Assembly (NCBI GenBank): GCA_024639515.1 | Contig: JAHEIG010000009.1 | Location: 1-55,829, forward strand | Direction of reading: 5' to 3' | Source: Rhodobiaceae bacterium | GTDB lineage: Bacteria; Pseudomonadota; Alphaproteobacteria; RS24 | DNA: 55,829 bases | In this document: positions 34,716 to 50,922 of the stretch, one piece after another | Layout of the letters: each line of letters starts with the position of its first letter | How positions within the stretch are numbered: position 1 is the stretch's first letter | Program-made: the position numbers and the translations under genes | The notes under the pieces: generated by a model | The model's database searches: none | Told to the model about the DNA's origin: nothing | Seen by the model: only the letters and a program-made list of their open reading frames with translations

Positions 34716-34804
34716 GTTTCGTCTCTCCCCTCTAGAGATGGCATTCCCTTTGATGACCCTGATACCAGTAAAATGGGGGCTTTTCGGCCACCTATTTACA
34801 TATG

Positions 34805-34950
34805 AACACACAAAAAGCATATAAAAGGTAACATTTTGTGTCGCTGTGCTGATAATTTTTGGAAAGTTTAATAATTCATAGAAGGTAATTAAAACTTAAC
34901 CAAACTACCAGCACAGCAACACTGCTAGAAGAGCTCTCGACGATACACTG
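34805..34950 (-). repeat. Inverted copy (X) of the primase 3' end plus downstream structured element found at 37915-38060 (Y)
   Basis: Reverse complement gtgtatcgtcgagagctcttctagcagtgttgctgtgctg...cagcacagcgacacaaaatgttaccttttatatgctttt aligns with 37917-38054 with scattered substitutions. Confidence 0.88.
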
Positions 34951-35056
34951 CTTGCCCCTGGCAAGCACGCGCTATCCTAAAATCTGAATAAACACCCCGC
35001 CGCCTGGTCAGGTATGTCGCATTTTGGTCTACCATCTGGTCTACCATAACAGCCAT
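34925..35056 (-). pseudogene. Fused remnant: integrase N-terminus joined in frame to primase C-terminus (43 codons)
   Basis: Minus strand reads MAVMVDQMVDQNATYLTRRRGV|YSDFRIARACQGQAVYRRELF*; first part matches integrase MVDHMVDQNATYLTRRRGV, second matches primase PDFRMARTNRGLEVYRRELF*. Confidence 0.88.
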
Positions 35057-35319
35057 GATCTCTGCTCCTCAAACAAATATGCTTGAAGATCAATGGCTTG
35101 GACCGTGAAACACGGTGCTTGAAACTTGAAAATGGTGCCCAGGAGATGGGTTCGATGCCTTTCCTAGGCTCCTAGCAAGCCCTGACCTTCAATAATATCA
35201 ATAGGTTAGCACTTTTGGGGGCTCGTGCAAATCCTATTTGTGGTCATCCATATGGTCTACCAAGCAAAGACCCGAGTTCCGGGTCACACGGGCCGTGAAA
35301 CATGGGTAATTGGGGGTTA
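35020..35319 (+). repeat. att-like unit A: full attP-like site (int-side arm, tRNA-Leu 3' core at 35133-35146, distal arm)
   Basis: Shares int 5' end/leader/core with unit D and int 5'/leader/core/distal arm with unit B (inverted); 35117-35319 identical to reverse complement of 44389-44591. Confidence 0.9.
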
Positions 35320-35624
35320 CTGAAGCAGGGGTCGGAATGGGTTCGGGTGTTAATTGCCCCCCCCCACCCCCAATAGTTTACGGGCGGCGGCTCGGAACAT
35401 GGGGCTTGATTCATGGATCGGTGGAAGCGGCGCGCGCAAATACCAAATCTGAATGCTTTTCTTATCGTTCCTCAGGGGCAATGACCCAGAGGGCTATGCT
35501 GGTTGAAAAAATAGAGAGAATCAGGAAAAAATACAATTTAACTAAAACCTGCGGGGCAGAGTTTTGGGCAATAATAAAATTCAGTAGGGTTACATTCGAG
35601 GCCCTAGATTCACCCCTGCCTTCG

Positions 35625-35665
35625 AAATTTATCGCATCCGTCCGCACAAGCGGACCGATAAATTT
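35625..35665 (+). promoter_or_regulatory. Strong bipartite hairpin/cruciform 14 nt upstream of the primase start
   Basis: AAATTTATCG-catcc-GTCCGC-ACAA-GCGGAC-CGATAAATTT: 10 bp outer and 6 bp inner perfect stems. Confidence 0.75.
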
Positions 35666-35678
35666 TATAGGCACAAAA

Positions 35679-37940
35679 ATGACTCTGAAAAAGTTGAAAA
35701 TTAGTTTCGGTGATAGCGCCGAGAAACTCGTCGACAATGGCTATGAACCGCTTCCGCTTGCTATTGCCGCGAAACGCCCAATCATCAAAGACTGGACCAA
35801 CCAAGATCTCTGCGATCCCAAAGTTATCGAGCATCTAATGAAAACCTACCCAACGGCTGGCGTTGGCGTGAGATGCGGAAATTTGATTGTGACCGATATC
35901 GATGTGAGAGACCAAGCCGCAAGTCACGCGATCCGAGAACTGGCGATCGAGCACTTTGGCGAGACACCTCTTATCCGCTTTGGGAACAGGCCAAAACAGG
36001 TACTCTTGTTTCGACGAAAAGGAGCTGCCTTTTCAAAGAAGACAACAGCAGCCCTCAGCCTCATGAATACAAAAGCACAAGTTGAGGTCCTTGCAGGCGG
36101 CAGTCAAATGGTGGCTTTCAATATCCACCCTGACACGGGGCAACCCTATGAGTGGGAAGACGAAAGTCCATTGGACGTCCCGCTCGAGGATCTCACCGAA
36201 GTATCCGAAGGGGACATTGACGCCTTTTTGTTGGAGGCTGAGCAGCTGCTTATTTCGGAATTCGGTGCGATTAAGTTAGTCGGTTCAGAAAACAGTTCTA
36301 AAGCAACTAGCGCCTCTACAGGACAGCCACAAAAGCTTGACCTAGCTATGGCGGAAAGTGCCCTGTTAGTGCTCGACCCACAGGATCGTGAAACATGGAT
36401 TAAGGTTGGACACGCGCTAAAAGCAACAGGCAATCCGGCTGCGTTCGAGCTATTCGCCAGTTGGTCGAAGAAAAGGCCGGACGGTTCAGTGCCGCATAAT
36501 TTCCTCTCTGATGAAGACGTGCAGCAAACTTGGGAAGGCATGAAGCCAAATAGAACGGGCATTTCTGCCATTTATGCCGAGGCGAGGCGTCAAGGTTGGG
36601 AGGGCGGCCCTTACCGCCTATCGTCGACCACTCATACCGCTATTGCCCGTTATATTCTTGAGGTCAGCAAAGCAGATGGAACGGGCTATATTTTTGATGA
36701 AGGACATTTATATCAATACGTCGGAAGTCATTGGGAAGAGATAGGCCATAATGAGCAACGCAGAATAGTTCATGAACTAGATGGCCTGCGGGTAGGTAAC
36801 AAAACAATTTCCGCCAATAAACCTTTTATAAATGGTGTGCTCACTGAGCTAGCAGCAATGGCTGAGCAGAAAGGCTTCTTTGAGTGCGCACCGAGGGGTG
36901 TAAATGCCAGAAATGGTTTTGTAGCGATCAACCAAGTCGGTGAGGTAAACTTCCGTCCGCACGACCCCAAGCTGGCCCAGCGCGCCACCCTTGAGATTTC
37001 TTGGAATGGCGGCGATGTAATAGAGCCAATTGGTATTCTGAAGAGCTACCTTGATACAACATTTGGAGACGTTAGCGAAGGCAAGCAGCGTCTTGCTTTG
37101 CAGGTGTTGGGGGTTGCTGCTATGGGAGCCTCTACGATACTCCCTGCCGCAAAGGCCTTTATTCTTCATGGCCCATCAGCTTCCAACGGCAAATCACAGT
37201 TTCTTGAACTGGTCAGAGGTATGGTTCCATCAAGGGTCGTTGGTAACGTGCCCCCTGCAGATTTTAGCAAGGAGCAGGCAGTCGCCGAATTAGTTGGCAA
37301 GCTAGTAAATGTTTGCGACGAGCTTGATGCAGGAAAATCACTCGGCTCAGACCGGTTCAAGGCTCTTGTGACTGGCGATCCTGTCTCGGCGAAAATCGTC
37401 TACCAGAGAGTGTTTAGCTTTGTGCCAAAAGCGTTACACATCTTCGCGACAAATCAGCTTCCGAACTTTTCAGGTGGAGTTGATCCGGGAGTAAAGCGTC
37501 GTTTGATTTCGATCAATTTCGAAAACTCCATCCCAAAGCAGAAACGGATACCTCACATTGCTCAGAAGATTTTAAAGGAACACGGCGAAGACCTTCTAGC
37601 CCTTGCAATTACAGCTGCTGCTGATGTTTTCTCGAATGGTGGCTATTCAATACCTGAAAGCGTAATGAAAGACACGGAAACTTGGTTCTTTGAGGCTGAC
37701 CTTGTTCTTTGGTGGATTGAGGAAGGCGGCCTAGATCGAAATGTTTTTCAAAATGGAATATCGGCGCTAACGCTCTTTGCCGTCTTTAAAGAAGACACTT
37801 CTGACTTAGCAGACCCGAGATACCCCATCAGTCACAGAAGTTTCACCGGTAGACTGAGACAAGCTTTAGCGGGGAATCCAGACTTCAGGATGGCTCGCAC
37901 AAATCGAGGACTAGAAGTGTATCGTCGCGAGCTGTTCTAG
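35679..37940 (+). CDS. Bifunctional DNA primase-polymerase / PriCT-2 / D5-family (P4-type) helicase
   Basis: Prim-pol YEPLPLAIAAKRPIIKDW...VGVRCGNLIVTDIDVRD; PriCT-2 DRETWIKVGHALKATGNPAAFELFASWSKK; SF3 helicase FILHGPSASNGKSQFLELVRG and KALHIFATNQLPNFSGGVDPGVKRRLISINF. Upstream 123 codons of the listed ORF look non-coding. Confidence 0.92.
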   Translation: MTLKKLKISFGDSAEKLVDNGYEPLPLAIAAKRPIIKDWTNQDLCDPKVIEHLMKTYPTAGVGVRCGNLIVTDIDVRDQAASHAIRELAIEHFGETPLIRFGNRPKQVLLFRRKGAAFSKKTTAALSLMNTKAQVEVLAGGSQMVAFNIHPDTGQPYEWEDESPLDVPLEDLTEVSEGDIDAFLLEAEQLLISEFGAIKLVGSENSSKATSASTGQPQKLDLAMAESALLVLDPQDRETWIKVGHALKATGNPAAFELFASWSKKRPDGSVPHNFLSDEDVQQTWEGMKPNRTGISAIYAEARRQGWEGGPYRLSSTTHTAIARYILEVSKADGTGYIFDEGHLYQYVGSHWEEIGHNEQRRIVHELDGLRVGNKTISANKPFINGVLTELAAMAEQKGFFECAPRGVNARNGFVAINQVGEVNFRPHDPKLAQRATLEISWNGGDVIEPIGILKSYLDTTFGDVSEGKQRLALQVLGVAAMGASTILPAAKAFILHGPSASNGKSQFLELVRGMVPSRVVGNVPPADFSKEQAVAELVGKLVNVCDELDAGKSLGSDRFKALVTGDPVSAKIVYQRVFSFVPKALHIFATNQLPNFSGGVDPGVKRRLISINFENSIPKQKRIPHIAQKILKEHGEDLLALAITAAADVFSNGGYSIPESVMKDTETWFFEADLVLWWIEEGGLDRNVFQNGISALTLFAVFKEDTSDLADPRYPISHRSFTGRLRQALAGNPDFRMARTNRGLEVYRRELF

Positions 37941-37942
37941 CA

Positions 37943-38027
37943 GTGTTGCTGTGTTGGCAGTTGGGGTAGGTTTTAATTGCCGTCTATGAATTATTAAACT
38001 TTTCAAAAATTATCAGCACAGCAACAC
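37943..38027 (+). repeat. 85-bp element (Y) with 14-bp terminal inverted repeats, immediately after the primase stop
   Basis: GTGTTGCTGTGTTG ... CAGCACAGCAACAC; second copy of identical length at 34838-34922. Confidence 0.8.
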
Positions 38028-38054
38028 AAAGCATTACCTTTTGTATGCTTTTTT
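38028..38054 (+). terminator. Probable intrinsic terminator of the primase transcript
   Basis: AAAGCAT-taccttttgt-ATGCTTT followed by ttt. Confidence 0.6.
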
Positions 38055-38073
38055 AGCGTTCAAATAAAAGTAA

Positions 38074-38282: not shown

Positions 38283-39776
38283 TTAATCTACCGCCAAATC
38301 AGCCATTGGCGCTTTCCGCTCTGCACCGCCAAATTCATCGGGGTCCAACATCACACGCCACAAAGGTATGCTGGTAGATGGACCAATCGGTGAGCTGGTC
38401 AAAAGTGCATGCAACCTTTCAACGACATCTGATCTTTCCGACGCAAGGTCGCGACTTTCAGTTTCGTCCTGCTTAATATCGTAGAGCTGCAGCGCGCCAT
38501 TATTTCGTTCGATGAGCTTCCATCGTCCGCTGAAGAGTGCCTTGCCGTCCATGCCCATCGTCACGAAATCTGAAGGCACAATCTCCCTTGCTTCGGCCAA
38601 TGCCGACCACATGCTCTTGCCATCGGTCAATTGACCGGTTTTTGCACTGCCGGTCGCGGCTTCCATCAGGGTCGGCAACAAATCAGTGACGTGCAGGCGA
38701 CCGTCATAGTCTGCATCCGTTAATTTGCCCGGCCAATTAATGATGGCGGGGACACGAATGCCGCCCTCTAAAACCGAGTTTTTGCCGCCGCGTAATGGGC
38801 CGTTATCGGCGGCGCCGTCAAACATGTTGGTGCGCATGAATTCCAGAAATCGACCGGGAATGGGAGTGCCGAACAGGCTTTCCAGACCACCTATAAGGTG
38901 ATAGGCAAAATTCGGTAGCAAACGATGCTCGGTTAGGCCGCCATTATCGCTCATGAAAAAGATGAGTGTATCTTCGCGAATCCCTTGCGCGTCAAGCTCA
39001 TCCATCAATTTGCCGATGGCGACATCCATTTCACTGACCATTGCGGCATGCGCTCGCCGTTTTCCCGAAGCAATATGAGCATATTGAGCCAGTGCTTCTG
39101 CCGGTGCCTCATTGGGCAAATGCGGGGCGCCGAGCGCAAGATACAGGAAGAACGGTTTTTCCTTATTGCGATTGCGGACGACACGCACGGCTTCAGCAGC
39201 AAGCAATTGCGTTGTATAGCCTTCATCGCGCGCTGTTATGCCGTCGCGCTGCCAGTCATAATGGCCGCCATGCACATGGTCCCAATAGCCGACACCGCCA
39301 GTCAAATGGCCGTAAAAACTGTCAAACCCGCGCGCATTCGGCAAATGAGCTTTTTTGCGCGGCCCTAAATGCCATTTCCCGGCTAATGCGGTTTGATAGC
39401 CATGTTGTTTCAAAAATTCCGGCAATAATTTGCGATCCAGCGGCAAGCCGTTTGGATTGAGTTTGGAATAGGGGCGCGTCACGCCAAGGCGCAGCGCAGA
39501 TTGACCGGTCAGCAATGAAGCGCGGGTTGGACTGCAAGTCGGGTGGGCGTAAAAGCGCGTTAAACGTTTTCCGGTCGCGGCCAGCCGATCAAGATTTGGG
39601 GTTTTGATTTCACTGCCATTAAATCCGACATCGCGCCAACCCAAATCATCGGCCAAAATGACGATGATATTCGGCTTGGCAAGTGCCGGACTTACCGATA
39701 AGGCAATCAGAAAAATTAATATAAACCGCATGATAAATGCCTCCTTTTGAGTAAAGGGAAGGTTAATTCCTGACAT
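38283..39776 (-). CDS. Secreted arylsulfatase (S1-type), Cys-type formylglycine site; start may be internal at MRFILIF
   Basis: Signal peptide MRFILIFLIALSVSPALA; PNIIVILADDLGWRDVGFNG; CSPTRASLLTGQ active-site motif. Confidence 0.92.
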   Translation of the reverse strand: MSGINLPFTQKEAFIMRFILIFLIALSVSPALAKPNIIVILADDLGWRDVGFNGSEIKTPNLDRLAATGKRLTRFYAHPTCSPTRASLLTGQSALRLGVTRPYSKLNPNGLPLDRKLLPEFLKQHGYQTALAGKWHLGPRKKAHLPNARGFDSFYGHLTGGVGYWDHVHGGHYDWQRDGITARDEGYTTQLLAAEAVRVVRNRNKEKPFFLYLALGAPHLPNEAPAEALAQYAHIASGKRRAHAAMVSEMDVAIGKLMDELDAQGIREDTLIFFMSDNGGLTEHRLLPNFAYHLIGGLESLFGTPIPGRFLEFMRTNMFDGAADNGPLRGGKNSVLEGGIRVPAIINWPGKLTDADYDGRLHVTDLLPTLMEAATGSAKTGQLTDGKSMWSALAEAREIVPSDFVTMGMDGKALFSGRWKLIERNNGALQLYDIKQDETESRDLASERSDVVERLHALLTSSPIGPSTSIPLWRVMLDPDEFGGAERKAPMADLAVD

Positions 39777-39803
39777 TTGTCAATTAATTATTGACAAATG
39801 TCA
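39771..39803. promoter_or_regulatory. Tandem TetR-type operators between sulfatase and tetR
   Basis: TGACATTTGTCAAT-taatt-ATTGACAAATGTCA; each half is itself a TGACA(TT/AA)TGTCA palindrome, centres 21 bp apart. Confidence 0.75.
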
Positions 39804-39824
39804 ATTACGACTTTTAATAAAGGC

Positions 39825-40469
39825 ATGGAAAAAGCCATCGCAAAATTATCTGCCAGTCAAAAGCCAACAAAAGGCGAGAAAGCCGTTACATCGTTAATGG
39901 ATGCTGCACTCGCCTTGCTGGGCGCAAACCAATCAAGTGAGTTAACCCCCGGTCTTATTTGTCAGCAAGCGGGTATGAAGCGACCCAGCTTCTATACTTA
40001 TTTCAACTCAGTGGATGAGCTTTTGGATAGTTTATGTGCTCGCGAAGTCGACAATTTCGAGGCAACTTATTTGCGCCATCATGCCGAAAATGACAGTCCT
40101 TTATCGCGGATTGTACGAATACCGCTTTATATTTACGCCCGCGCGCAGCTAGAAATAGGTTGGTTTAAGGTCATCAGTCATTCCGTGACATGGAAAAGAG
40201 AGCAGCGCGAAAAGCGCTTGACGCATTTGCATGCCGATGTGAGAGCAGCTATCGCTTCCGGCCAATTGAAAATGAGCGATGGTCAAATAGATGGGTTTAT
40301 TTTTCTCTATCTGGCGGCAATCTCGCTGCTCGTCGATAGCCAAAATGAGCGGGCGGTCGCAGACGGGCCGTCGACCGAAGCCCTCAAATTGCTTTTCAAA
40401 GGCTCCGGTGCGGATATGGAAACGGTTGAACGCTTGCTGGCTGCCCCGCTTGAGGAGCTTCTAGAATGA
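39825..40469 (+). CDS. TetR/AcrR-family regulator (ORF opens at 39798; start at 39825 keeps the operator outside the CDS)
   Basis: KAVTSLMDAALALLGANQSSELTPGLICQQAGMKRPSFYTYFNSVDELL. Confidence 0.82.
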   Translation: MEKAIAKLSASQKPTKGEKAVTSLMDAALALLGANQSSELTPGLICQQAGMKRPSFYTYFNSVDELLDSLCAREVDNFEATYLRHHAENDSPLSRIVRIPLYIYARAQLEIGWFKVISHSVTWKREQREKRLTHLHADVRAAIASGQLKMSDGQIDGFIFLYLAAISLLVDSQNERAVADGPSTEALKLLFKGSGADMETVERLLAAPLEELLE

Positions 40470-42085
40470 GTGATGTCATTATCGTCGGCGGCGGCCCAAG
40501 CGGTATGATGGCTGCCTTACTTTTGGGCAAGCACGGCCTGACCAGCCATATTGTTGAGCGGCGCGAAACGATTTTGCAGGCTCCGCGCGCCCATGCGGTA
40601 AACGGCAAAACCATAGAAGTTTGCAGTTCGGCGGGCATTGCGGCAGATGAGATATATGCCGCAGGCATGCCGCCATCGCGCGGGGGCATGGTCAATTTCT
40701 GGTCGACCCTTTCGGGCACTTATTTGGGCGGACTGCCTTATGAGCGCCAAGACGCGGCAGTGCTTGATCTGGTGTCATACAGGCTGGTCAACATTTCGCA
40801 GCCGCAATTTGAAGCCATATTAGAGCGCCATGTCGAGGCCAATGACATGATTACCCTGTCGCGCGGCGTAACGGCGGGGGAACTTGTTGAAAATGATGAT
40901 GGCATTACGCTGGCAATTGAAGGCGCCGATACGAACCGGCTTCAGGCCGATTATTTGATTGCGGCTGATGGTGCCGGGTCCAGTCTGCGCCGTCAAATGG
41001 GCATTGAAATGGAAGGGCCTGACGCGCTTCAGCATTTCATCACAGTTCATTTTCACGCCGATTTATCGGAGCTTATCGGTGACAAGCCGGGGATTTTGCA
41101 TTGGATTATGGAGCCGTCCGCCAGCGGCACCCTGATTTCTTATGATGACGGTCAAAATTGGGTTTTGATGCATGGCTGTCCGCCCGGCCAGGAAGACCCG
41201 AAACTCTATGATGAGGCGCGTTGTATGGCTTTGATTAACGCAGCACTCGGCCGCGATGATATTGAGGTCGCGATGAAAAATGTTAGCCCGTGGGTGATGA
41301 CCGCTCAGGTCGCTGCCCGTTACCGTCACGGGCGCGCTTTTTTACTGGGCGATGCGGCACATCGTTTTCCGCCGGCCGGTGGACTTGGGCTCAATACAGG
41401 CATGGGGGACGCACAAAACCTCGCCTGGAAATTGGCCATGGTCAAAAACGGCATGGCCGATGACTGCTTGCTCGACAGCTATGGGAGTGAGCGCAAGGCC
41501 GTGGCCGAAACCAATAGCGCGCAAAGCATGGAAAACGCCATGCGCATGTTTGAATTGATTGGTTTTTTGCTAGGGCCTGAACCGGAAAATATGCAAGCGC
41601 ATTTCGATGAGATTTGTTCTAATGCTGCCAATTCCCCTGAACTGGCCGCCGCAATAGCCGCGCAAAAAGCCCATTTTGACAGCCTACGCCTGCAGGTCGG
41701 CTATAGCTATGGCAACCATGATGATACGGGCTTGGGCATTGACGATTACCGTCCACTTTTCCGCATTGGCGATTGTGTGCCGCACCACAGAATAGCAATA
41801 AATGGCACTGATATTTCGCTCACCGAATATCTGCAAGGGACGCAGTTTACCCTTTTGGTCAGCCGACATCATCAGCCCCCAAAAGGCGAAATCGCGCAAT
41901 TAAGAATATTGCATGACGGCACGGATTTCACCGGTGATTGGTCGGCCGGACTTGCGGAATATGATGCGGATTTGGCCGCACTGATGGTACGCCCTGACGG
42001 ACATATTGCGGCGCATTTCCATGCTGCTGATTTATCGCAAGATAATGTTGCGCAGGCATTAGAGAAAAATTTGCGAGGGGCATAG
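40466..42085 (+). CDS. FAD-dependent monooxygenase (PCP/MhpA-like aromatic hydroxylase)
   Basis: VIIVGGGPSGMMAALLLGKHGLTSHIVERR; GADGAGSSLRRQ-like; AFLLGDAAHRFPPAGGLGLNTGMGDAQNLAWKLA. Confidence 0.9.
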   Translation: MSDVIIVGGGPSGMMAALLLGKHGLTSHIVERRETILQAPRAHAVNGKTIEVCSSAGIAADEIYAAGMPPSRGGMVNFWSTLSGTYLGGLPYERQDAAVLDLVSYRLVNISQPQFEAILERHVEANDMITLSRGVTAGELVENDDGITLAIEGADTNRLQADYLIAADGAGSSLRRQMGIEMEGPDALQHFITVHFHADLSELIGDKPGILHWIMEPSASGTLISYDDGQNWVLMHGCPPGQEDPKLYDEARCMALINAALGRDDIEVAMKNVSPWVMTAQVAARYRHGRAFLLGDAAHRFPPAGGLGLNTGMGDAQNLAWKLAMVKNGMADDCLLDSYGSERKAVAETNSAQSMENAMRMFELIGFLLGPEPENMQAHFDEICSNAANSPELAAAIAAQKAHFDSLRLQVGYSYGNHDDTGLGIDDYRPLFRIGDCVPHHRIAINGTDISLTEYLQGTQFTLLVSRHHQPPKGEIAQLRILHDGTDFTGDWSAGLAEYDADLAALMVRPDGHIAAHFHAADLSQDNVAQALEKNLRGA

Positions 42086-42094
42086 GAGAGAATT

Positions 42095-42874
42095 ATGGAT
42101 TTGGGACTGAAAGGGAAGAAGGCCATTATTTGCGCTTCATCACGCGGACTTGGCTTTGCGTGCGCCACGGCTTTGGCGCGAGAAGGGTCGGATGTAATCA
42201 TTAACGGGCGCGATGTCGAGGCTCTAAAAGCGGCAGAAGCGGAGATCGCAGAGCTGCAAGGCGGCAGTGTCACCTCCGTCATTGGTGACCTCAATACACA
42301 AACTGGCCGTGATGCAATTTTGCAGGCTTGCGAGGCGCCTGATATTCTTGTCACTAATAATAATGGCCCATCGCCCGGCACTTATGACCAATGGGATGAA
42401 GCCATGTGGCAGGAGGCTTTCGCCGCCAATATGATTGCCCCCGCACTGCTCATTCGCGCCGTCATTGACGGCATGCGTGCCCGCAAATTTGGCCGTATTG
42501 TCAATATCACTTCGGCCATGGTCAAATCCCCGCATCCCAATATGGGGCTTTCCACATCCGCCCGCTCGGCACTGACGGCGTTTTCCAAAGGGCTGTCGAA
42601 GGAAGTCGCGAAGGATAATGTAACGATAAACAATATGCTGCCCGAACGTTTCGACACGCAGCGTCAGCATCAAATGGCCGAACTGGCTATGGCATTAAAA
42701 AATATAACTTACGAAGAGGCGCGCGCTGAAATGGAAGCGACCATCGCAGCCGGTCGCCTTGGCCGACCGGATGAGTTTGGTGACGCATGTGCTTTTCTAT
42801 GCAGTGAACAGGCCGGTTTTATTTCCGGCCAGAATTTACAATTGGATGGCGGCTCTTATGTCGGCCTGATTTAG
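42095..42874 (+). CDS. SDR-family oxidoreductase
   Basis: KKAIICASSRGLGFACATALAREGSDVIINGR; VNITSAMVKSPHPNMGLSTSARSALTAFSKGLSKE; ISGQNLQLDGG. Confidence 0.9.
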   Translation: MDLGLKGKKAIICASSRGLGFACATALAREGSDVIINGRDVEALKAAEAEIAELQGGSVTSVIGDLNTQTGRDAILQACEAPDILVTNNNGPSPGTYDQWDEAMWQEAFAANMIAPALLIRAVIDGMRARKFGRIVNITSAMVKSPHPNMGLSTSARSALTAFSKGLSKEVAKDNVTINNMLPERFDTQRQHQMAELAMALKNITYEEARAEMEATIAAGRLGRPDEFGDACAFLCSEQAGFISGQNLQLDGGSYVGLI

Positions 42875-42884
42875 CGAGGAGAAA

Positions 42885-43301
42885 ATGTATACGAATTTGA
42901 TTGCCCATATATTGGTCAGCGTGGTGGCCGTAATGATTATGATTGGCCCGATGGTAGCTGATTTCAACCGAACGCATGCGACCAATCCGCTGTGGACGCC
43001 GCATGCACGCTTTCACGTTGTTTGGCAGGTTTTGACCAATTCGACTTTGGCTTTACTCACGCTTTACTTCATTTGGGGCTCAGGCCATCTCATGCTCGGC
43101 GCGCTGATGAATTACATCTGGATTGCCACTTTTTTTGCGACACTCGCCGCCATGCCGATGTTTGAGGGCGCGCTGGCCGATGAAAACGGCATTAAGCCAT
43201 TTATCTGGAAGTTCGGCGATAAGATGGTGAAAGTCGATACCAACCTTTTCGGCGCTTGCATGATGACTGTATTGAATACAGCTGCATTGGTCATCAGTTA
43301 G
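42885..43301 (+). CDS. Small membrane protein, DUF6640-like
   Basis: Four hydrophobic segments, FNRTHATNPLWTPHARFHVVWQV. Confidence 0.6.
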   Translation: MYTNLIAHILVSVVAVMIMIGPMVADFNRTHATNPLWTPHARFHVVWQVLTNSTLALLTLYFIWGSGHLMLGALMNYIWIATFFATLAAMPMFEGALADENGIKPFIWKFGDKMVKVDTNLFGACMMTVLNTAALVIS

Positions 43302-43306
43302 AGGCA

Positions 43307-44359
43307 ATGAAAATGGTTCTGCAAATTATCGGCCTTGCTTTCGGTGCTCTCATAATTGTTTTTGTGGCGCGCAGCTTTTACGTTTCACAACCGCTTTTTA
43401 AGGAGAAAATAAGGCAAGCCCCCGACAGTGCTTTTTCCTTGGCTCCGGTTGAGCAAGCGCTGAGTTTTGCGCGAACGAAAAACGGCAAGAGCCTGCTGGT
43501 GGTGGCAATGAATCGCGAAGGCGTGCGCGCCATTGACCTTGCCGCAGCAACAGCGTCTCAAGGCAGCGAGCCGTTGGATTTTTTACGCTCTTTGGGCGAT
43601 GAAAAATTGCGCGCGGTGATGAACAGCGACGCGACGATTTACAATTGGCGGGATCTGGATGTGCCGTTTGATTCGCAAAGCGGCATTATTGCGGCGGGGG
43701 TTAATTTTAAGGCCCATGCGGAAGAGACCGGCCTCGAAGACGGGCCGTTTCTGTTCCCGAAACTGTCAACGCCGAGCGCTTGGCAGGCGCCGGTCAAAAA
43801 ACGCACAAGGCTCGATTATGAGGTCGAGCTCTGCGCTGTAGCCATTGAGGATATTGCGCTCGGCAAAAGCGGGCGCTTCGCTTTTGTGCTGTGTAATGAT
43901 TTGACCGACAGATGGGCGCTGTTGCGTCATATTAATCTTAAAAAGCCAATGGGGCGCACCGGTTTTCCTGAGGGCAAGGGCGGCGATGGCATGCTGCCAG
44001 TCGGTGCCATTCTCATCGTGCCGCGCAAACCGGATTTTTACCAACAGATTGAATTGGGGCTGGCGGTCAATAATCGACTGCGCCAGCGCGACAGTGCCGG
44101 CATGATGATTTGGGATGCGCCATCAATCGGGCAAAAAGCTCTAGCGCTTTGCGATAAAGATTTTTATCTGCATGGCGAGGTTATTAGGCTGGCAGAATGT
44201 GGCGATTTAAAAAAAGGCACAGCCATATTGCTTGGCACACCAGAGGGCGTGGCCTTTCAAATGCCTAACATATGGATGCCGTGGGCTTACTTGCGCCAAG
44301 GTGATGCGGTAATGGCTTTCGCCTCGCATTTGGGTGTTTTGGAAACCCAAGTAGAATAA
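43307..44359 (+). CDS. Fumarylacetoacetate hydrolase-family protein with N-terminal membrane anchor
   Basis: TM MVLQIIGLAFGALIIVFVARSFYV; AAGVNFKAHAEETG, TRLDYEVELCAVAI, ILLGTPEGVAFQ. Confidence 0.82.
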   Translation: MKMVLQIIGLAFGALIIVFVARSFYVSQPLFKEKIRQAPDSAFSLAPVEQALSFARTKNGKSLLVVAMNREGVRAIDLAAATASQGSEPLDFLRSLGDEKLRAVMNSDATIYNWRDLDVPFDSQSGIIAAGVNFKAHAEETGLEDGPFLFPKLSTPSAWQAPVKKRTRLDYEVELCAVAIEDIALGKSGRFAFVLCNDLTDRWALLRHINLKKPMGRTGFPEGKGGDGMLPVGAILIVPRKPDFYQQIELGLAVNNRLRQRDSAGMMIWDAPSIGQKALALCDKDFYLHGEVIRLAECGDLKKGTAILLGTPEGVAFQMPNIWMPWAYLRQGDAVMAFASHLGVLETQVE

Positions 44360-44388
44360 TGAAACTTGCGCGCTGGGAGATATACCAC

Positions 44389-44689
44389 TAACCCCCAATT
44401 ACCCATGTTTCACGGCCCGTGTGACCCGGAACTCGGGTCTTTGCTTGGTAGACCATATGGATGACCACAAATAGGATTTGCACGAGCCCCCAAAAGTGCT
44501 AACCTATTGATATTATTGAAGGTCAGGGCTTGCTAGGAGCCTAGGAAAGGCATCGAACCCATCTCCTGGGCACCATTTTCAAGTTTCAAGCGCCGTGTTT
44601 CACGGGACAAGCCATTGATCTTCAGACATATTTGTTTGAGGAGCTGAGATTATGGTTTCATGGTAGACCAGATGGTAGACCAAAATGCG
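44389..44689 (-). repeat. att-like unit B: full attP-like site, inverted relative to A
   Basis: 44389-44591 is identical to reverse complement of 35117-35319; then leader and int 5' remnant atggtagaccagatggtagaccaaaatgcga. Confidence 0.9.
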
Positions 44690-44690
44690 A

Positions 44691-44968: not shown

Positions 44969-45538
44969 TCACACCAGATAGAACAGGGCAAACAGCATGA
45001 TCCACAGCAAATCGACCAAGTGCCAAAAAATGGCCCCACTTTCCAGCCCGCGTTGTGTTTCCGGGGTGAACGGGGCTTGCGATTTCTTGAACAGAAAGCT
45101 GAGTATGACAACGCCGACAAACACATGAATTGCGTGAATGGCCGTGAACACGAAGTAATACATGAAAAAATCATTGGTCATCGGGGTCATCCCGTCAGAG
45201 ACCTTGGCATTCCACTCAAAGACTTTGTTTATGAGAAATATAACACCGGACAAAATCGCCAGCCGGAACCAAATGCGATTATCTCGGCCATCGTCTAATC
45301 GAAAACGTTCAACACCGATCGCCACGAAAAAAGAGCCGGTGAGCAGAAGCAGTGTATTAGCAAGGCCGAACCTCAAATCAAGCGTGCCGCGCGCGCTTGA
45401 AAACACGCCTCCCTGTTCCTGATTGCCAATGGCAATCAGAATGAAAAACAGGGAAAAGACCAGCAAGTCCCCTGTTACAAAGGCCCAGATACCGGGTTCC
45501 CCCGGTATCCGGCTTTGCGCTTGGCTTTTCTCATTCAC
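44969..45538 (-). CDS. Heme-copper oxidase subunit III-like (NorE-like) protein
   Basis: PGEPGIWAFVTGDLLVFSLFFILIA ... FVFTAIHAIHVFVGVVIL ... GAIFWHLVDLLWIMLFALFYL. Confidence 0.82.
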   Translation of the reverse strand: MNEKSQAQSRIPGEPGIWAFVTGDLLVFSLFFILIAIGNQEQGGVFSSARGTLDLRFGLANTLLLLTGSFFVAIGVERFRLDDGRDNRIWFRLAILSGVIFLINKVFEWNAKVSDGMTPMTNDFFMYYFVFTAIHAIHVFVGVVILSFLFKKSQAPFTPETQRGLESGAIFWHLVDLLWIMLFALFYLV

Positions 45539-45561
45539 AGGATAAACAGCCTTTATAAGCT

Positions 45562-46290
45562 CTAGCTATTTTCGTCATTGGCGATCTTGATCATCACCCA
45601 GGACATAATGGCTATCCAAGCAAAGAATGCGATGAAGGGCAGATACATGGCAACAATGCCGTGCCAGGAAAACGGCCCGTCTTTGAAAAATATGACCATT
45701 TGGCCCGGCGCGAAGAGCAAAGCCGCCCATAAGTTTACATAAGCCACCCAGCGCGGAAATGGTTCTCTTCCCGGCTCGGAGAAAAAGATAGGCAGGGCTA
45801 TTAACACGCACCAGCCGCCAAATAAGGGCACAGAGAAAACTGCCAAAAAGTAGGCAAAATCAGCCCACATGAGCAATATAGATGGTGCGTAGGTATCCGG
45901 TCGGAAAACCATCAGCGACCAAGCAAAGGCCACCAGCAAAGCGATGGTGGTGCCACCTGCTGTAAATACGAGTTGCACGTACGAAAACACCGGGCTTGTT
46001 TCGAAGCGCCGGGTTTGCGCTGCAATACCTGCGCCGAATGTGCCGAAAAGGGCAAAAGAGGCGATCATGAAAATCGAGCCTACCCGCATATTGAGCAGGT
46101 TTTCATTGACCTTTGCGACGACCTCAGAAGGTGTGTCACTGGCATTCAGGAGCGGCGGCAACATGCCCCCTAACCAAACGCCGCCTATAATAAATAGGAT
46201 AATTGCCGCATATCCGGTGTAGCCGCAAAATGCCAAGGATTTCCTCGACAGGCTATCTTGCGCCAATATGTTGCTCGTTATTTCACTCAT
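45562..46290 (-). CDS. Polytopic membrane protein of unknown function (242 aa)
   Basis: Multiple TM segments; transcribed with the oxidase-like genes. Confidence 0.6.
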   Translation of the reverse strand: MSEITSNILAQDSLSRKSLAFCGYTGYAAIILFIIGGVWLGGMLPPLLNASDTPSEVVAKVNENLLNMRVGSIFMIASFALFGTFGAGIAAQTRRFETSPVFSYVQLVFTAGGTTIALLVAFAWSLMVFRPDTYAPSILLMWADFAYFLAVFSVPLFGGWCVLIALPIFFSEPGREPFPRWVAYVNLWAALLFAPGQMVIFFKDGPFSWHGIVAMYLPFIAFFAWIAIMSWVMIKIANDENS

Positions 46291-46321
46291 TTTTTTCTCC
46301 CCTAGTAAGAATGGTGATTTT

Positions 46322-47650
46322 CTAAAATTCCTCCGCCCGATATCGGAGCAAATTCATTGCCGCTCTCTCGCCACTATTTACAGCGGCCTCTACTCCGGCT
46401 TGGGAGAAATAATCTCCCGCCAGTTTTATGCCTTCCGGTAATAGAGAATGAACCTTGTCGAGCATTTTGTAGTGACCCGGTTTGGCTATGGTCAGCCCGT
46501 TTTTGTAACGGAACAAATGAACAAAGCTTGGCTTTTGTGCCTGGCCAAAAGCGGCATTTACCTGTTTGACCGATTCCTCTTTTATGTCGTCATCGCTCAT
46601 ATCATTAAGTGCTGGCGTGTTGAAATAGACCCCAACCATTTGCGCCCCCTTCGGGACCGATGCCGGCAAGCGCCGTCCATGCAAAACCATAGCCCCAACA
46701 TTGCGAACGCCACCTTCGCCAACGGGCAACACAATATCTGTTGGATAATCGGGCCATGGGTCCTCGTCATACCCCACGGCAACATGGGCATATTCGGTGT
46801 AATGCGTACTCATGAGCCGATGATAGGCATCCTCCGACACATGCTCTTTCAAAAGGTCGGCAGCAATAAAGGCTTCCGTCGCAATGATAATGCTGTCGAC
46901 CAGAACACTGCCGCCCGTATAAGAAACGCGCCACATTTGACCTTCTCGCGTCAAACCTTCAACCGGGGTCGAGACATGAATCTTGTCGGAAGAAACATTG
47001 TCCAAAAACCATTCATTGATTTGCCCAATGCCACCCTCCGGTGATGACAATGCGATTTTGTGCCCCTGCTTCATCAGTGCCTTGGGAAAGGGAGTTGATA
47101 ATTCGCGTAATGGCACTGCATAAAGAAAATCCATAATCGGGCGCATGACATATTCAAATGCCTTGTCACCCAAGTTTGCACGCGACCAATCTTCCAAATT
47201 TTCATCACCGTCATATCTGGCAAGCTGCGATCCGTCGAACGGGTTGCGCGCGCTCGGCGTAAAAAGCAAGCGCAGTCCGGTCACGATTATGCGGAGTTTG
47301 TCTCGCAGCCTTAGCGTTGGAACCTTTAGAAAGCTAAAAAACGAACCAAGCCGAACCGGGTATCTGGACCTATCATCATCCATAAGCTCAGATGCACCGG
47401 TCCAGGGCACCAATTGTTTTTTTCGTCCCATTTCTCGCAGCAAGGCCATGGTGCGCGGATAGATGCCTCCCATAAGAAACAGAGCTCCAGTTCCCAGATT
47501 GTAACCGTCATCTCGATGGAGCTGTTTTGTACGCCCTCCAACTTTCTCGGCCGCCTCAAACAGGTCAAAATCAATTTTGTTTTTCTGCAAGGTATAGGCA
47601 GCTGCACAACCTGCAGGCCCGCCCCCGATGATTGCCACCTTCATGCTCAA
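46322..47650 (-). CDS. FAD-dependent amine oxidase/protoporphyrinogen oxidase-like oxidoreductase
   Basis: MKVAIIGGGPAGCAAAYTLQKNKIDFDLFEAAEKVGGRTKQ; C-terminal KLAGDYFSQAGVEAAVNSGERAAMNLL. Confidence 0.85.
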   Translation of the reverse strand: MSMKVAIIGGGPAGCAAAYTLQKNKIDFDLFEAAEKVGGRTKQLHRDDGYNLGTGALFLMGGIYPRTMALLREMGRKKQLVPWTGASELMDDDRSRYPVRLGSFFSFLKVPTLRLRDKLRIIVTGLRLLFTPSARNPFDGSQLARYDGDENLEDWSRANLGDKAFEYVMRPIMDFLYAVPLRELSTPFPKALMKQGHKIALSSPEGGIGQINEWFLDNVSSDKIHVSTPVEGLTREGQMWRVSYTGGSVLVDSIIIATEAFIAADLLKEHVSEDAYHRLMSTHYTEYAHVAVGYDEDPWPDYPTDIVLPVGEGGVRNVGAMVLHGRRLPASVPKGAQMVGVYFNTPALNDMSDDDIKEESVKQVNAAFGQAQKPSFVHLFRYKNGLTIAKPGHYKMLDKVHSLLPEGIKLAGDYFSQAGVEAAVNSGERAAMNLLRYRAEEF

Positions 47651-48291
47651 ATTCCGTTCTTAGAAATTGCTTTTGTTTGCAAGGCTCCTGCAACGAGTTG
47701 ATGGAGAAAAACCTCAATATCTATAGCTGCCGGAGTGGTAAGCTTCATTTGCGCCGCCATTTGTCCACCGCCGATGATGATATACGCGGCAATTTCTGGA
47801 TCTAAATCTGGCGATAGTTCTCCGCTTTTTTGGCCAACGCTAATGATTTCACAAAACAAATTTGCAACTCTGCTTTGCAAGTCTTCGTAAAGCGTCCAAG
47901 TGGCATTCTCGAAAGCTGTGCTCCAATCCAGCCAAATTTTCATGATTGCAGAATCTAGCTCGACGGTGTTTGAAAATGCTCGCGCCACATTCAATATTTT
48001 ATCAAAAGCAAGTTCATCCTCAGCGGCGGCGTTCCAAACAATTTCCGTTATACGGGTATCGACCAGTTCGAGTACCGCCTCCGTCAGGCTCTCTCGTGTA
48101 TCGAAATATGCATAAACGGTTGGAACGGAAACACCGGCCTTGAGAGCAACGTGTGAGCGACGTGCGCCTTCAATGCCGTGATTTACATATATTTCTATTG
48201 CACAGTCGATGAGTTGTTCACGTCTTTTTTCTGGCGAAAGTTTCGGAGCTCTCTTGGGTCGATTGGTAATTTTCAGGTTTTGCTGGCTCAC
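47647..48291 (-). CDS. TetR-family transcriptional regulator
   Basis: SPEKRREQLIDCAIEIYVNHGIEGARRSHVALKAGVSVPTVYAYFDTRESL. Confidence 0.88.
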   Translation of the reverse strand: MSQQNLKITNRPKRAPKLSPEKRREQLIDCAIEIYVNHGIEGARRSHVALKAGVSVPTVYAYFDTRESLTEAVLELVDTRITEIVWNAAAEDELAFDKILNVARAFSNTVELDSAIMKIWLDWSTAFENATWTLYEDLQSRVANLFCEIISVGQKSGELSPDLDPEIAAYIIIGGGQMAAQMKLTTPAAIDIEVFLHQLVAGALQTKAISKNGI

Positions 48292-48391
48292 AATAACTTC
48301 CTTGATTGAGTTGCATTATACTGATACTAATATCACTGAAGAAAGTTCATCACAACCGGAATTTTCGCCAAAATAAACGATTGGAGGGAGG

Positions 48392-49435
48392 ATGCTCGAG
48401 GTTCTAGATTCTGAAAAGCAGTCACGTTGGTGGGTTGAGGAAAAAATAAAATCTTACGACCCGGAAACTGAGTATTCAGAAATTGTGTCGCTTATGGCGC
48501 AGTATCAGTTGGATGAGTTTACGCTCAATTTTTTGGTTACCATTCTGACAAGCTATACTCTTAAGCCGTCGCATATGGCTGAGACCCTTTCCATAACAAA
48601 CAAAGGATTGCGTCGGCCCAATCAACGTATGCAGGACACTTTGGATTTTTTCTGGATTTGGCACGTGTTTGGCCCTGACGCAGAGGAGACCAAAAAATCT
48701 CTTTCGAGATTGAACAGATTGCACGCAGGGGTCGCCCGCATGTTGCCAGGACATTTTGAGAATGGTGACGATTTCATATATGTGCTTGGTCGGCTATTTG
48801 TGCTGCAAGATCGATTGCTCAAGAACCTGAACATAGTTGGCATGAATCCCCATATAAAGGCGGCGCTGTTCAATTTCGCCAGAGCATTGTCCAAACATTT
48901 TCTAACTGAAGGCGACAAGCCGGTTGAGGGATTTCCGGACACTCCGGAAGCGCTTGAGGCATTTGTTGATGACTGGGAAAGCAAAAATCACGGCTTTTCG
49001 CCGGTGAGTCGCGACATCGTGAACTCTTTTGTTCACGCTTTTGGAGACAGATGGTTTTCGCACCCATTCAAGCCAATCGGAAGGTGGGTTTGCATCGAGG
49101 CACTTGAGGACAGTTTTTTAGAGCATGTTCGCATTAAGCCCCTAAAGGGTATTCGTAAATGGTTGGCGCGCGGCGCTCTCAAAAGTCTGTTTTTCTATAA
49201 AACAAGAATTGCTGCAGATAGAAAAACATCGGCCTATGACGAGCGGGTATTATTGAGCAAAAAAGAATGTGCGGAGATGGATGAGCGCGCCGTTAGGCGC
49301 GTGAGCGAGTTTGGCTGGACAAAGGGAGGAAAGGATTCCGTGGGCCTAGGAGATGGACCGAGCTTGGCTGGAAAATGCCCTGTCATGAGCCATACCCAAA
49401 CATCAAGCGAGGTCAAACGCCCAGTTTCCAACTAA
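48392..49435 (+). CDS. Possible MpaB/DUF2236-like oxygenase (tentative)
   Basis: LNRLHAGVARMLPGHFENGDDFIYVLGRLFVLQDRLL ... IGRWVCIEALEDSFLEHV; divergent from TetR; family assignment by resemblance only. Confidence 0.4.
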   Translation: MLEVLDSEKQSRWWVEEKIKSYDPETEYSEIVSLMAQYQLDEFTLNFLVTILTSYTLKPSHMAETLSITNKGLRRPNQRMQDTLDFFWIWHVFGPDAEETKKSLSRLNRLHAGVARMLPGHFENGDDFIYVLGRLFVLQDRLLKNLNIVGMNPHIKAALFNFARALSKHFLTEGDKPVEGFPDTPEALEAFVDDWESKNHGFSPVSRDIVNSFVHAFGDRWFSHPFKPIGRWVCIEALEDSFLEHVRIKPLKGIRKWLARGALKSLFFYKTRIAADRKTSAYDERVLLSKKECAEMDERAVRRVSEFGWTKGGKDSVGLGDGPSLAGKCPVMSHTQTSSEVKRPVSN

Positions 49436-49502
49436 TATGGGCCGGCAATGCCGATGACCGCGACTGAATAGCTATAAGAAGGCTTGCTAGGGGCCTGGGG
49501 TC

Positions 49503-49583
49503 GGCATCGAACCCATCTCCTGGGCACCATTTTCAAGTTTCAAGCGCCGTGTTTCACGGGACAAGCCATTGATCTTCAAGCAT
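49503..49583 (-). repeat. att-like unit C: core plus int-side leader only, inverted relative to D
   Basis: ggcatcgaacccatctcctgggcaccattttcaagtttcaagcgccgtgtttcacgggacaagccattgatcttca shared with unit B; abuts the integrase 3' end. Confidence 0.85.
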
Positions 49584-49601: not shown

Positions 49602-50759
49602 CTAAATTATAATTTTCTGAAGCCACTTTTGCTTCATGGCAAGGTCATACCCATCGCCATATGAGTGGCCTATGCCGGAAGTGCTCCAACCACCTATGGC
49701 ATCAGAAATGTCTGACGGACACTCAACCGCTCTTAAACGATCACGCAGAGCATGCCGGAATGAATGAACCACGCAACCTTCAGGAACTCTGGGCTTCAGC
49801 CATTTGTTAAGCGCAGCGCTTGCTGAGTTGGCATTGCATTTAGACGCACTGGTGTAATTCGGGAAGGCAAATCGCCCCTCAATCTGTACGATCCGTTCCG
49901 CAGCCCAATAGCTGTATCCGATAAGTGGCACGAGCCTTTCGCTTGATGTGGTCTTAAGCTTGCGCCATGGGTGCTCATGAATGATCAAGTGGGGTATTTC
50001 AGTATCAAGAACGATATCCTCTTTTATCAAACCCAGTGCTTCTGAGAGGCGGAGACCCGTATCGCTGATTAGAGCAAGTAGATGGCGGTTTGGATCGTCC
50101 ATCGCTTCACATTCCGCCTGCAATATTTTGATTGTTTTTACCGGCATGGTTGGCCGGGTTTTTGCCCTGTCATCGGCAGGAATGAATATTTTTGCGAATG
50201 GATTGGTGTTTGGCAGTCCGTGTTCTTGGATGGCCAAGGAGACAATAGATCGTATTGAAGCGAAACACCTCTTTACCGAAGAAGAGGCAAGGCCTCTTTG
50301 AATCAAATGATCCCGGAAACTTGCCCCATCGGCAGAAGTCAGCTCACTGATAGAGACATCGCCGCTCAAAACCATCAATTGCTCAATGTTACGCCGCGCA
50401 GTCCGCTCAAACGTTTCCCCCTTCCCTTTGCCCTTAAGACGCAGGTAGAGGTCGAGAGCTTCGGATAATGTAATCGATGCGGCCGGTTGAGCTGGGCTCT
50501 CCAGCGTCATCGAATGTTGTGAAATTATCTCTTCGAGCTTCATACCGTTCCAGAAGCTCTCCAGCTTTTCTGACAAAACAATTGCCGAAGCGATAGCCTT
50601 GCGGCGCGACTTCGTTTTAAGCGACACGACAATTCGCTCTTTGCCCAGTCGCTTTTGAAGTTCCTTCGGAATACGCCGCGTATAGTAGTAATGCACACCC
50701 CGACGCCTGGTTAGGTATGTCGCATTTTGGTCTACCATATGGTCTACCATAGAAACCAT
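49602..50759 (-). CDS. Tyrosine-type site-specific integrase
   Basis: DUF6538-like N-terminus YLTRRRGVHYYYTRRIPKELQKRLG; catalytic region DTGLRLSEALGL ... HSFRHALRDRLR ... SYGDGY; adjacent to tRNA-Leu. Confidence 0.92.
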   Translation of the reverse strand: MVSMVDHMVDQNATYLTRRRGVHYYYTRRIPKELQKRLGKERIVVSLKTKSRRKAIASAIVLSEKLESFWNGMKLEEIISQHSMTLESPAQPAASITLSEALDLYLRLKGKGKGETFERTARRNIEQLMVLSGDVSISELTSADGASFRDHLIQRGLASSSVKRCFASIRSIVSLAIQEHGLPNTNPFAKIFIPADDRAKTRPTMPVKTIKILQAECEAMDDPNRHLLALISDTGLRLSEALGLIKEDIVLDTEIPHLIIHEHPWRKLKTTSSERLVPLIGYSYWAAERIVQIEGRFAFPNYTSASKCNANSASAALNKWLKPRVPEGCVVHSFRHALRDRLRAVECPSDISDAIGGWSTSGIGHSYGDGYDLAMKQKWLQKIII

Positions 50760-50850
50760 GATCTCTGCTCCTCAAACAAATATGCTTGAAGATCAATGGC
50801 TTGGACCGTGAAACACGGTGCTTGAAACTTGGGAATGGTGCCCAGGAGAA
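50721..50850 (+). repeat. att-like unit D: int-side arm, leader and core at the intact tRNA-Leu 3' end
   Basis: cattttggtctaccatatggtctaccatag...ttgaagatcaatggcttggaccgtgaaacacggtgcttgaaacttgggaatggtgcccaggaga matches unit A up to the core and then diverges into tRNA. Confidence 0.9.
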
Positions 50851-50922
50851 GACTCGAACTTCCACACCCTTGCGAGTACTAGCACCTGAAGCTAGCGCGT
50901 CTACCAATTCCGCCACCTGGGC
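50836..50922 (-). tRNA. tRNA-Leu(CAG), island integration target
   Basis: Minus strand GCCCAGGTGGCGGAATTGGTAGACGCGCTAGCTTCAGGTGCTAGTACTCGCAAGGGTGTGGAAGTTCGAGTCTTCTCCTGGGCACCA; loop TTCAGGT. Confidence 0.97.

Follow-up and report, generated by a model that had tools for sequence, protein, structure and literature searches.

In Dehalococcoides, islands inserted at ssrA lie in tandem at one RNA gene and carry metabolic cargo; their recombinase, DsiB, is of the serine type and their direct repeat is 20 bp long, and 15 islands without an integration module have been termed possible CIMEs (PMC3146451). Tycheposons, cargo elements with a tRNA border, occur in marine bacteria such as Prochlorococcus (PMC10872708, PMC11389934), and CALINs are arrays of cassettes without an integrase (PMC11389934). 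In the KplE1 prophage, the intS/attL region combines arm-type sites with IHF, and an arm of attL overlaps the promoter or start of the integrase gene beside a tRNA gene (PMC2951348).

The locus described here lies in a window of 55,829 nucleotides (contig JAHEIG010000009.1), the whole of the stretch that was analyzed, from the draft genome of an alphaproteobacterium in the same family as the PS1-clade strain IMCC14465. We consider it likely that the window holds a tandem array of CIME-like elements that lack an integrase gene (int) and are recognized by one integrase lineage, and that two repeated units, A and B, are attP-like sites at the junctions of these elements. As in CIMEs and accretion in ICE and IME biology, blocks bounded by attL and attR and devoid of integration genes lie in tandem beside related elements. 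In contrast to CIMEs, no conjugative ICE or IME partner was seen (none of the ORFs examined was a conjugation gene), the helper int occupies a unit of its own, and both arms of the site, with their IHF-like sequences, are retained at the junctions. Tandem int-less islands with metabolic cargo at one RNA gene are common to this locus and the Dehalococcoides ssrA islands, but here there are a tyrosine integrase with arm sites and several tRNA genes. Tycheposons, compared by description, are similar in the tRNA border, the tyrosine recombinase, the nutrient or metabolic cargo and the streamlined marine hosts. The arrays fit the known general kind represented by the possible CIMEs of Dehalococcoides and by tycheposons. 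Arm-type sites with IHF, and an arm lying over the start of int, which predicts autoregulation, are features shared with KplE1 intS/attL and lambda attP, whereas the integrase here comprises DUF6538 and Phage_integrase domains and has its own iteron, TGGTCTACCA. The likeness to integrons and CALINs is one of functional idea, integrase-free cargo arrays mobilized in trans; the sites here are large, asymmetric and attP-like with tRNA cores, and the blocks contain several genes. For phage satellites (P4-like or PICI), the viral collections gave no counterpart: neither pattern of the iteron pair was present in 2.9 million viral contigs, scans of viral contigs gave no match for the integrase, and phages contain only distant relatives of it.

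The att unit has four copies, A, B, C and T, all within the window and with no others elsewhere in the assembly (Table 1). Units A and B are 96.4% identical over an alignment of 306 bp. The 22-bp iteron pair occurs five times in the window as compared with none in 200 Markov shuffles of it, and a search of 28 genomes of the family that allowed up to two mismatches gave 36 matches versus one for a reversed-pattern control. An Rfam search gave no match other than the tRNA. The array at tRNA-Leu(CAG) spans about 25.6–50.8 kb. Outward from the tRNA gene, it reads core-P (unit T), int, partial P-core-partial P' (unit C), the block from mpaB to COX3, and P-core-P' (unit B). Beyond B are the block from FAA hydrolase to sulfatase, a hairpin, the primase gene, P'-core-P (unit A), a 5' remnant of int, a 3' remnant of the primase gene and a second hairpin, and beyond the second hairpin are ADH, BCCT, TPR-sulfotransferase and TonB receptor genes followed by host genes; the region from 16.7 to 25.5 kb matches the host sequence flanking this tRNA gene in the related genome G006. 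Unit C has lost the P' iterons, and the FAA-sulfatase element has no recognizable P end at 38.1–38.3 kb. Two simpler partitions of the array were rejected. The segment from A to B is not one transposon with terminal inverted repeats, since its cores are tRNA-derived and its two blocks occur separately elsewhere; that from T to A is not one simple element, since B and C lie inside it in the opposite orientation.

Table 1. Positions of the att units, their parts and the neighboring genes in the window
Feature	Position	Strand	Remark
Inverted second copy of primase 3' end and hairpin	34800-34952	-	87% identical
Unit A, complete attP-like site (P arm - core - P' arm), two-element junction	35017-35322	+	
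P-arm iteron pair TGGTCTACCA-N2-TGGTCTACCA, 12-bp period	35025-35046	+	Within int 5' remnant 34988-35056
IHF-like site GATCAATGGCTTG, P arm	35088-35100	+	One mismatch to WATCAANNNNTTR
Semi-palindromic motif CCGTGAAACACGG adjoining core; possible accessory or core-proximal site	35103-35115	+	
Core TGGTGCCCAGGAGA, 14 bp, tRNA-Leu(CAG) 3' end	35133-35146	+	
Exact IHF consensus TATCAATAGGTTA, P' arm	35196-35208	+	Sequence match
P'-arm iteron pair TGGTCATCCA-N2-TGGTCTACCA, located outside int	35241-35262	+	
Semi-palindromic motif, second copy CCGTGAAACATGG, distal in P' arm	35293-35305	+	
Primase/helicase-type replication protein (Prim-Pol, PriCT_2, D5_N, DUF5906), adjoins P' arm of A	35310-37940	+	
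Primase 3' end and ~130-bp hairpin sequence (origin-like or terminator-like)	37913-38065	+	
Int-less cargo: sulfatase, TetR, FAD monooxygenase, SDR, DUF6640, FAA hydrolase	38283-44359	.	
Unit B, complete attP-like site	44386-44690	-	P arm: COX3-mpaB element; P' arm: FAA-sulfatase element
Int-less cargo between B and C: COX3-like, ORF, amine oxidase, TetR, mpaB-like	44972-49435	.	
Unit C, partial att (P arm from position 70, core, P' arm start)	49481-49583	-	
int, tyrosine integrase, DUF6538 + Phage_integrase	49602-50759	-	5' end overlaps T iterons
Unit T, tRNA-proximal end: P arm fused to tRNA-Leu 3' end	50695-50849	+	
tRNA-Leu(CAG), integration target	50836-50922	-	

From P to P', the site comprises the iteron pair, the IHF-like GATCAATGGCTTG, CCGTGAAACACGG, GAAACTTG and the 14-bp core, and then, on the P' side, TGGGTTCGATGCC, the exact IHF consensus TATCAATAGGTTA, the iterons TGGTCATCCA/TGGTCTACCA and a second CCGTGAAACAtGG. 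In unit A, TGGTCTACCA is at 35025-35034, 35037-35046 and 35253-35262, and TGGTCATCCA is at 35241-35250. Units A, B, C and T all have a core identical to the tRNA-Leu 3' end. An earlier note on this DNA had described units A and B as an attP layout with paired iterons of 12-bp period on both sides of a core, and all of the motifs that it named were found in place; units C and T and the two IHF-like sites come in addition to those. The iteron pairs are present on both arms of A and B and are conserved in relatives, the second motif is on both arms of A, and the whole set recurs inverted in B, with the P' iterons at 44446-44467, the P iterons at 44661-44682 and the second motif at 44403-44415 and 44593-44605. 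The separation of iterons and core, put at about 100–120 bp, holds for the outer edges of the pairs (108 and 116 bp) but not for the inner edges (86 and 94 bp). A conserved small palindrome, GACCCGAGTTCCGGGTC, lies in the P' arm at 35268-35284, between the iterons and the distal motif.

At the level of sequence, both arms have an IHF-like site placed between the core and the arm iterons. The numbers expected by chance per 306 bp of the window are 0.03 for an exact IHF match and 0.31 for one with no more than one mismatch. The N4 positions of the P-arm site differ among relatives, and the genome encodes three PF00216 (IHF/HU-family) genes. In the close family, conservation of the P-arm iterons (0.86 and 0.93) barely exceeds that of the remaining arm sequence (0.85), and because the iterons overlap the 5' end of int, coding constraint contributes to the conservation of this arm. 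The same iterons also stand in the P' arm, outside int, and this speaks for a function at the DNA level; the case for the iterons rests on the P' arm and on distant relatives. Arms, core and integrase gene fit the proposed attP layout, as does the conservation of the arms beside several tRNA genes in relatives, and A and B fit the attP-like sites of an arm-binding (lambda-type) tyrosine integrase.

The int gene is the only one of its kind in the assembly. Its product has DUF6538 as the N-terminal domain, for which no paper was found in the open-licence literature. AlphaFold modelled the protein poorly as a whole (pLDDT 51); residues 14–70 are modelled as strand-strand-helix-strand-helix with a pLDDT of ~70, and comparison of the integrase with solved structures gave no match. 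No excisionase gene was identified. The gene sits between two inverted cores, that of T at the tRNA gene and that of C behind the stop codon, with unit C beginning 18 bp past the stop codon. The same 18-bp arrangement of int and an inverted partial att is found in genome G026, where the core is lost, and in IMCC14465, where the int frame is interrupted by one stop (TAA). In IMCC14465 (L038 1204-1390), the int unit abuts the 3' half of tRNA-Arg(CCG), and the full tRNA lies 2.5 kb away. Beyond int, in the window and in G026, blocks run from P' to P outward from the tRNA gene, the reverse of the int-less loci in G006 and G022. With these two informative cases, the reversed orientation could reflect entry at C or one inversion in a common ancestor. 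It is tempting to compare the int unit with attI, as a fixed capture platform at which int-less blocks would enter at C in a set orientation like cassettes, but we regard this analogy as unlikely to hold.

Several tRNA genes are bordered by the same arms in PS1-clade relatives, most of which are metagenome-assembled genomes with contigs that break at these repeats; no paper on islands of the PS1 clade was found in the open-licence literature. The same pairing of iterons was sought and found in these genomes, including beside tRNA-Leu(CAG), where the same P arm abuts the core TGGTGCCCAGGAGA. The same P arm also abuts tRNA-Arg(ACG) with the core TGGCGCACCGGGGA and tRNA-Arg(CCG) with the core TGGCGCACCCGAGA, and a diverged P arm abuts tRNA-Leu(GAG) with the core TGGTGCGGTCGAGA. 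Between loci with different cores, the arms are 75–99% identical. At loci of known host flank, the P' ends carry the core of the local tRNA, some of them differing from it by one or two changes. The iteron pair is also retained beside tRNA-Leu(GAG) and tRNA-Leu(CAA) by a second int subfamily, 47% identical, whose P arm has otherwise diverged, and a third int, in another family, has the iteron pair beside tRNA-Thr. In the genome that contains the window, another P arm, related to that of the window and accompanied by a 5' remnant of int, lies at tRNA-Leu(GAG) (G000:C10:7025-7046; L099, L125). A variant pair, TGGTCTACCCTTTGGTCTACCC, is present in G122 and G186, from two other alphaproteobacterial families, partly near contig ends. 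Exact iterons are retained on both arms of complete stacked junctions (the int-less B, L042 and L051), and iterons have decayed in several relatives, for example at L036, L041 and L052. Fused P/P' iteron scars adjoin tRNA-Leu at L035 (6626-6917), L048 (5372-5539) and G023:C142, as if an element had been lost via recombination between its two arms.

The two blocks that flank B are found separately in other genomes, and B is, judged by its sequence, the junction of two int-less elements with metabolic genes, as had been proposed. Proteins of the COX3-mpaB block are 86–95% identical to those of a block in G015 that adjoins a P' end, and proteins of the FAA-sulfatase block are 85–96% identical to those of a block in G023. 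Of five host genes beside tRNA-Leu, four are 59–68% identical and one is 83–84% identical. We take an identity of 85–96% for cargo blocks across genera, against 59–84% for host genes, as a sign that blocks without an integrase have moved recently. In G006, a 3-contig genome with no match to the integrase at E<=1e-10, there is a 4.2-kb int-less element with the P arm and tRNA-Leu at one end and the P' arm and core at the other; its cargo comprises a sulfate permease (SulP), an MBL-fold protein and a YeeE-like transporter. A block in G022, between P' plus core and P plus tRNA-Arg, contains genes for an LMW phosphatase, an aquaporin, a metallophosphoesterase, a glycosyltransferase and a diacylglycerol kinase (DgkA), and recurs in G023 with 90% identity over 3.56 kb, adjoining a complete site. 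Integrase and transfer genes are absent between the half-sites of the COX3-mpaB, SulP and LMW phosphatase-aquaporin-DgkA blocks, and the arms of the half-sites are the same as those of T beside int. The same blocks occur at loci with Leu or Arg cores. Stacked elements had been foreseen in the earlier note, but not that they would have no integrase and that the only intact int would occupy a separate unit flanked by T and C. The presence of near-identical int-less blocks in other genera suggests that a recombinase encoded outside the blocks can move them.

Unit A likewise joins two elements, but the orientation of its ends requires a later event. The sulfatase end at A bears P', whereas its counterparts at L044 and L052 bear P; the c5/BCCT end at A bears P, whereas its counterpart at L047 bears P'. 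If the segment flanked by the two hairpin copies, which are inverted relative to each other, were flipped back, both mismatches would be repaired and A, B and C would have the same orientation. From these three comparisons, A is probably a junction similar to B that was later inverted between the hairpin copies. The strong ~130-bp hairpin, in which the inverted repeats GTGTTGCTGTG/CACAGCAACAC flank an A+T-rich stretch, may be a replication origin kept in cis or a terminator, and similar copies lie near the P end of elements in G001, G006 and G010. Primase and int are both in the island with other blocks intervening, and no member of the family has a close primase.

From the site anatomy, tRNA-derived cores, stacking, int-less elements and recent spread of blocks that are apparent in the DNA, a mechanism can be proposed. 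A junction site would consist of the P' arm of one element, the shared core from the tRNA 3' end and the P arm of the next, in an array of several elements that have metabolic cargo and half-sites and no integrase. Units A and B would persist because each closes one element and opens the next, rather than being the leftover of a single integration. One arm-binding tyrosine integrase would bind the iterons on both arms, IHF would bend the arms, and the integrase would cut and recombine in the core, so inserting, excising or stacking int-less elements in trans. Because the 5' end of int lies within the T arm, as for KplE1 intS (PMC2951348), int would also be autoregulated.

The likeness of arms at loci of different cores raises the question of how far the integrase itself moves the blocks. 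Shared arms of ~120 bp (P) and ~165 bp (P') are available for homologous recombination, and cargo could spread mainly in this way, resident contents being swapped with the local core kept, while an integrase that made the sites no longer moves blocks. Pure integrase exchange does not easily give the same blocks at Leu- and Arg-core loci, and the fused scars at L035 and L048 show arm-arm recombination; on these two grounds, arm-mediated homologous recombination probably contributes. As the main route, we judge it somewhat unlikely, because integrase-mediated stacking would be expected to yield directly such complete stacked junctions as B, L042 and L051, and because there are still intact int genes in which the catalytic-domain motifs are conserved.

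A different history, in which the elements are immobile wrecks of once complete int-primase elements that lost int after integration in each lineage and have no movement in trans today, would account for the int 5' remnants in A, L039 and L040, the primase 3' remnants in the second hairpin copy and L033, and the decay of iterons at several loci. This appears rather improbable given that the same int-less blocks in other genera, at identities far above those of host genes, must have moved after the loss of int or without it, and that exact iterons remain on both arms of the int-less junctions. Units of 306 bp with sharp ends and inverted copies might also be MITE-like transposable repeats, or repeats with a regulatory role, whose likeness to attP is accidental. 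This is a very remote prospect and already disfavored: the cores match the 3' end of the local tRNA, the arms are asymmetric, and they abut tRNA 3' ends or duplicates thereof and overlap the int gene.

Stacked int-less elements recognized by one integrase lineage accordingly remain the preferred reading of the array. Within the open-licence literature, the complete two-arm junction sites, the iteron that several tRNA targets have in common and the int unit standing on its own are new. The arms allow blocks to be recognized in genomes where island finders that seek integrases detect nothing, and the arrays make trans-mobilization by a single integrase, and the tolerance of one integrase lineage for several tRNA cores, directly testable. 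Metabolic blocks may move among streamlined marine bacteria without an integrase of their own, by a concrete and testable route, and the cargo at stake includes putative lipid remodelling, sulfatase and aromatic catabolism, and sulfur transport.
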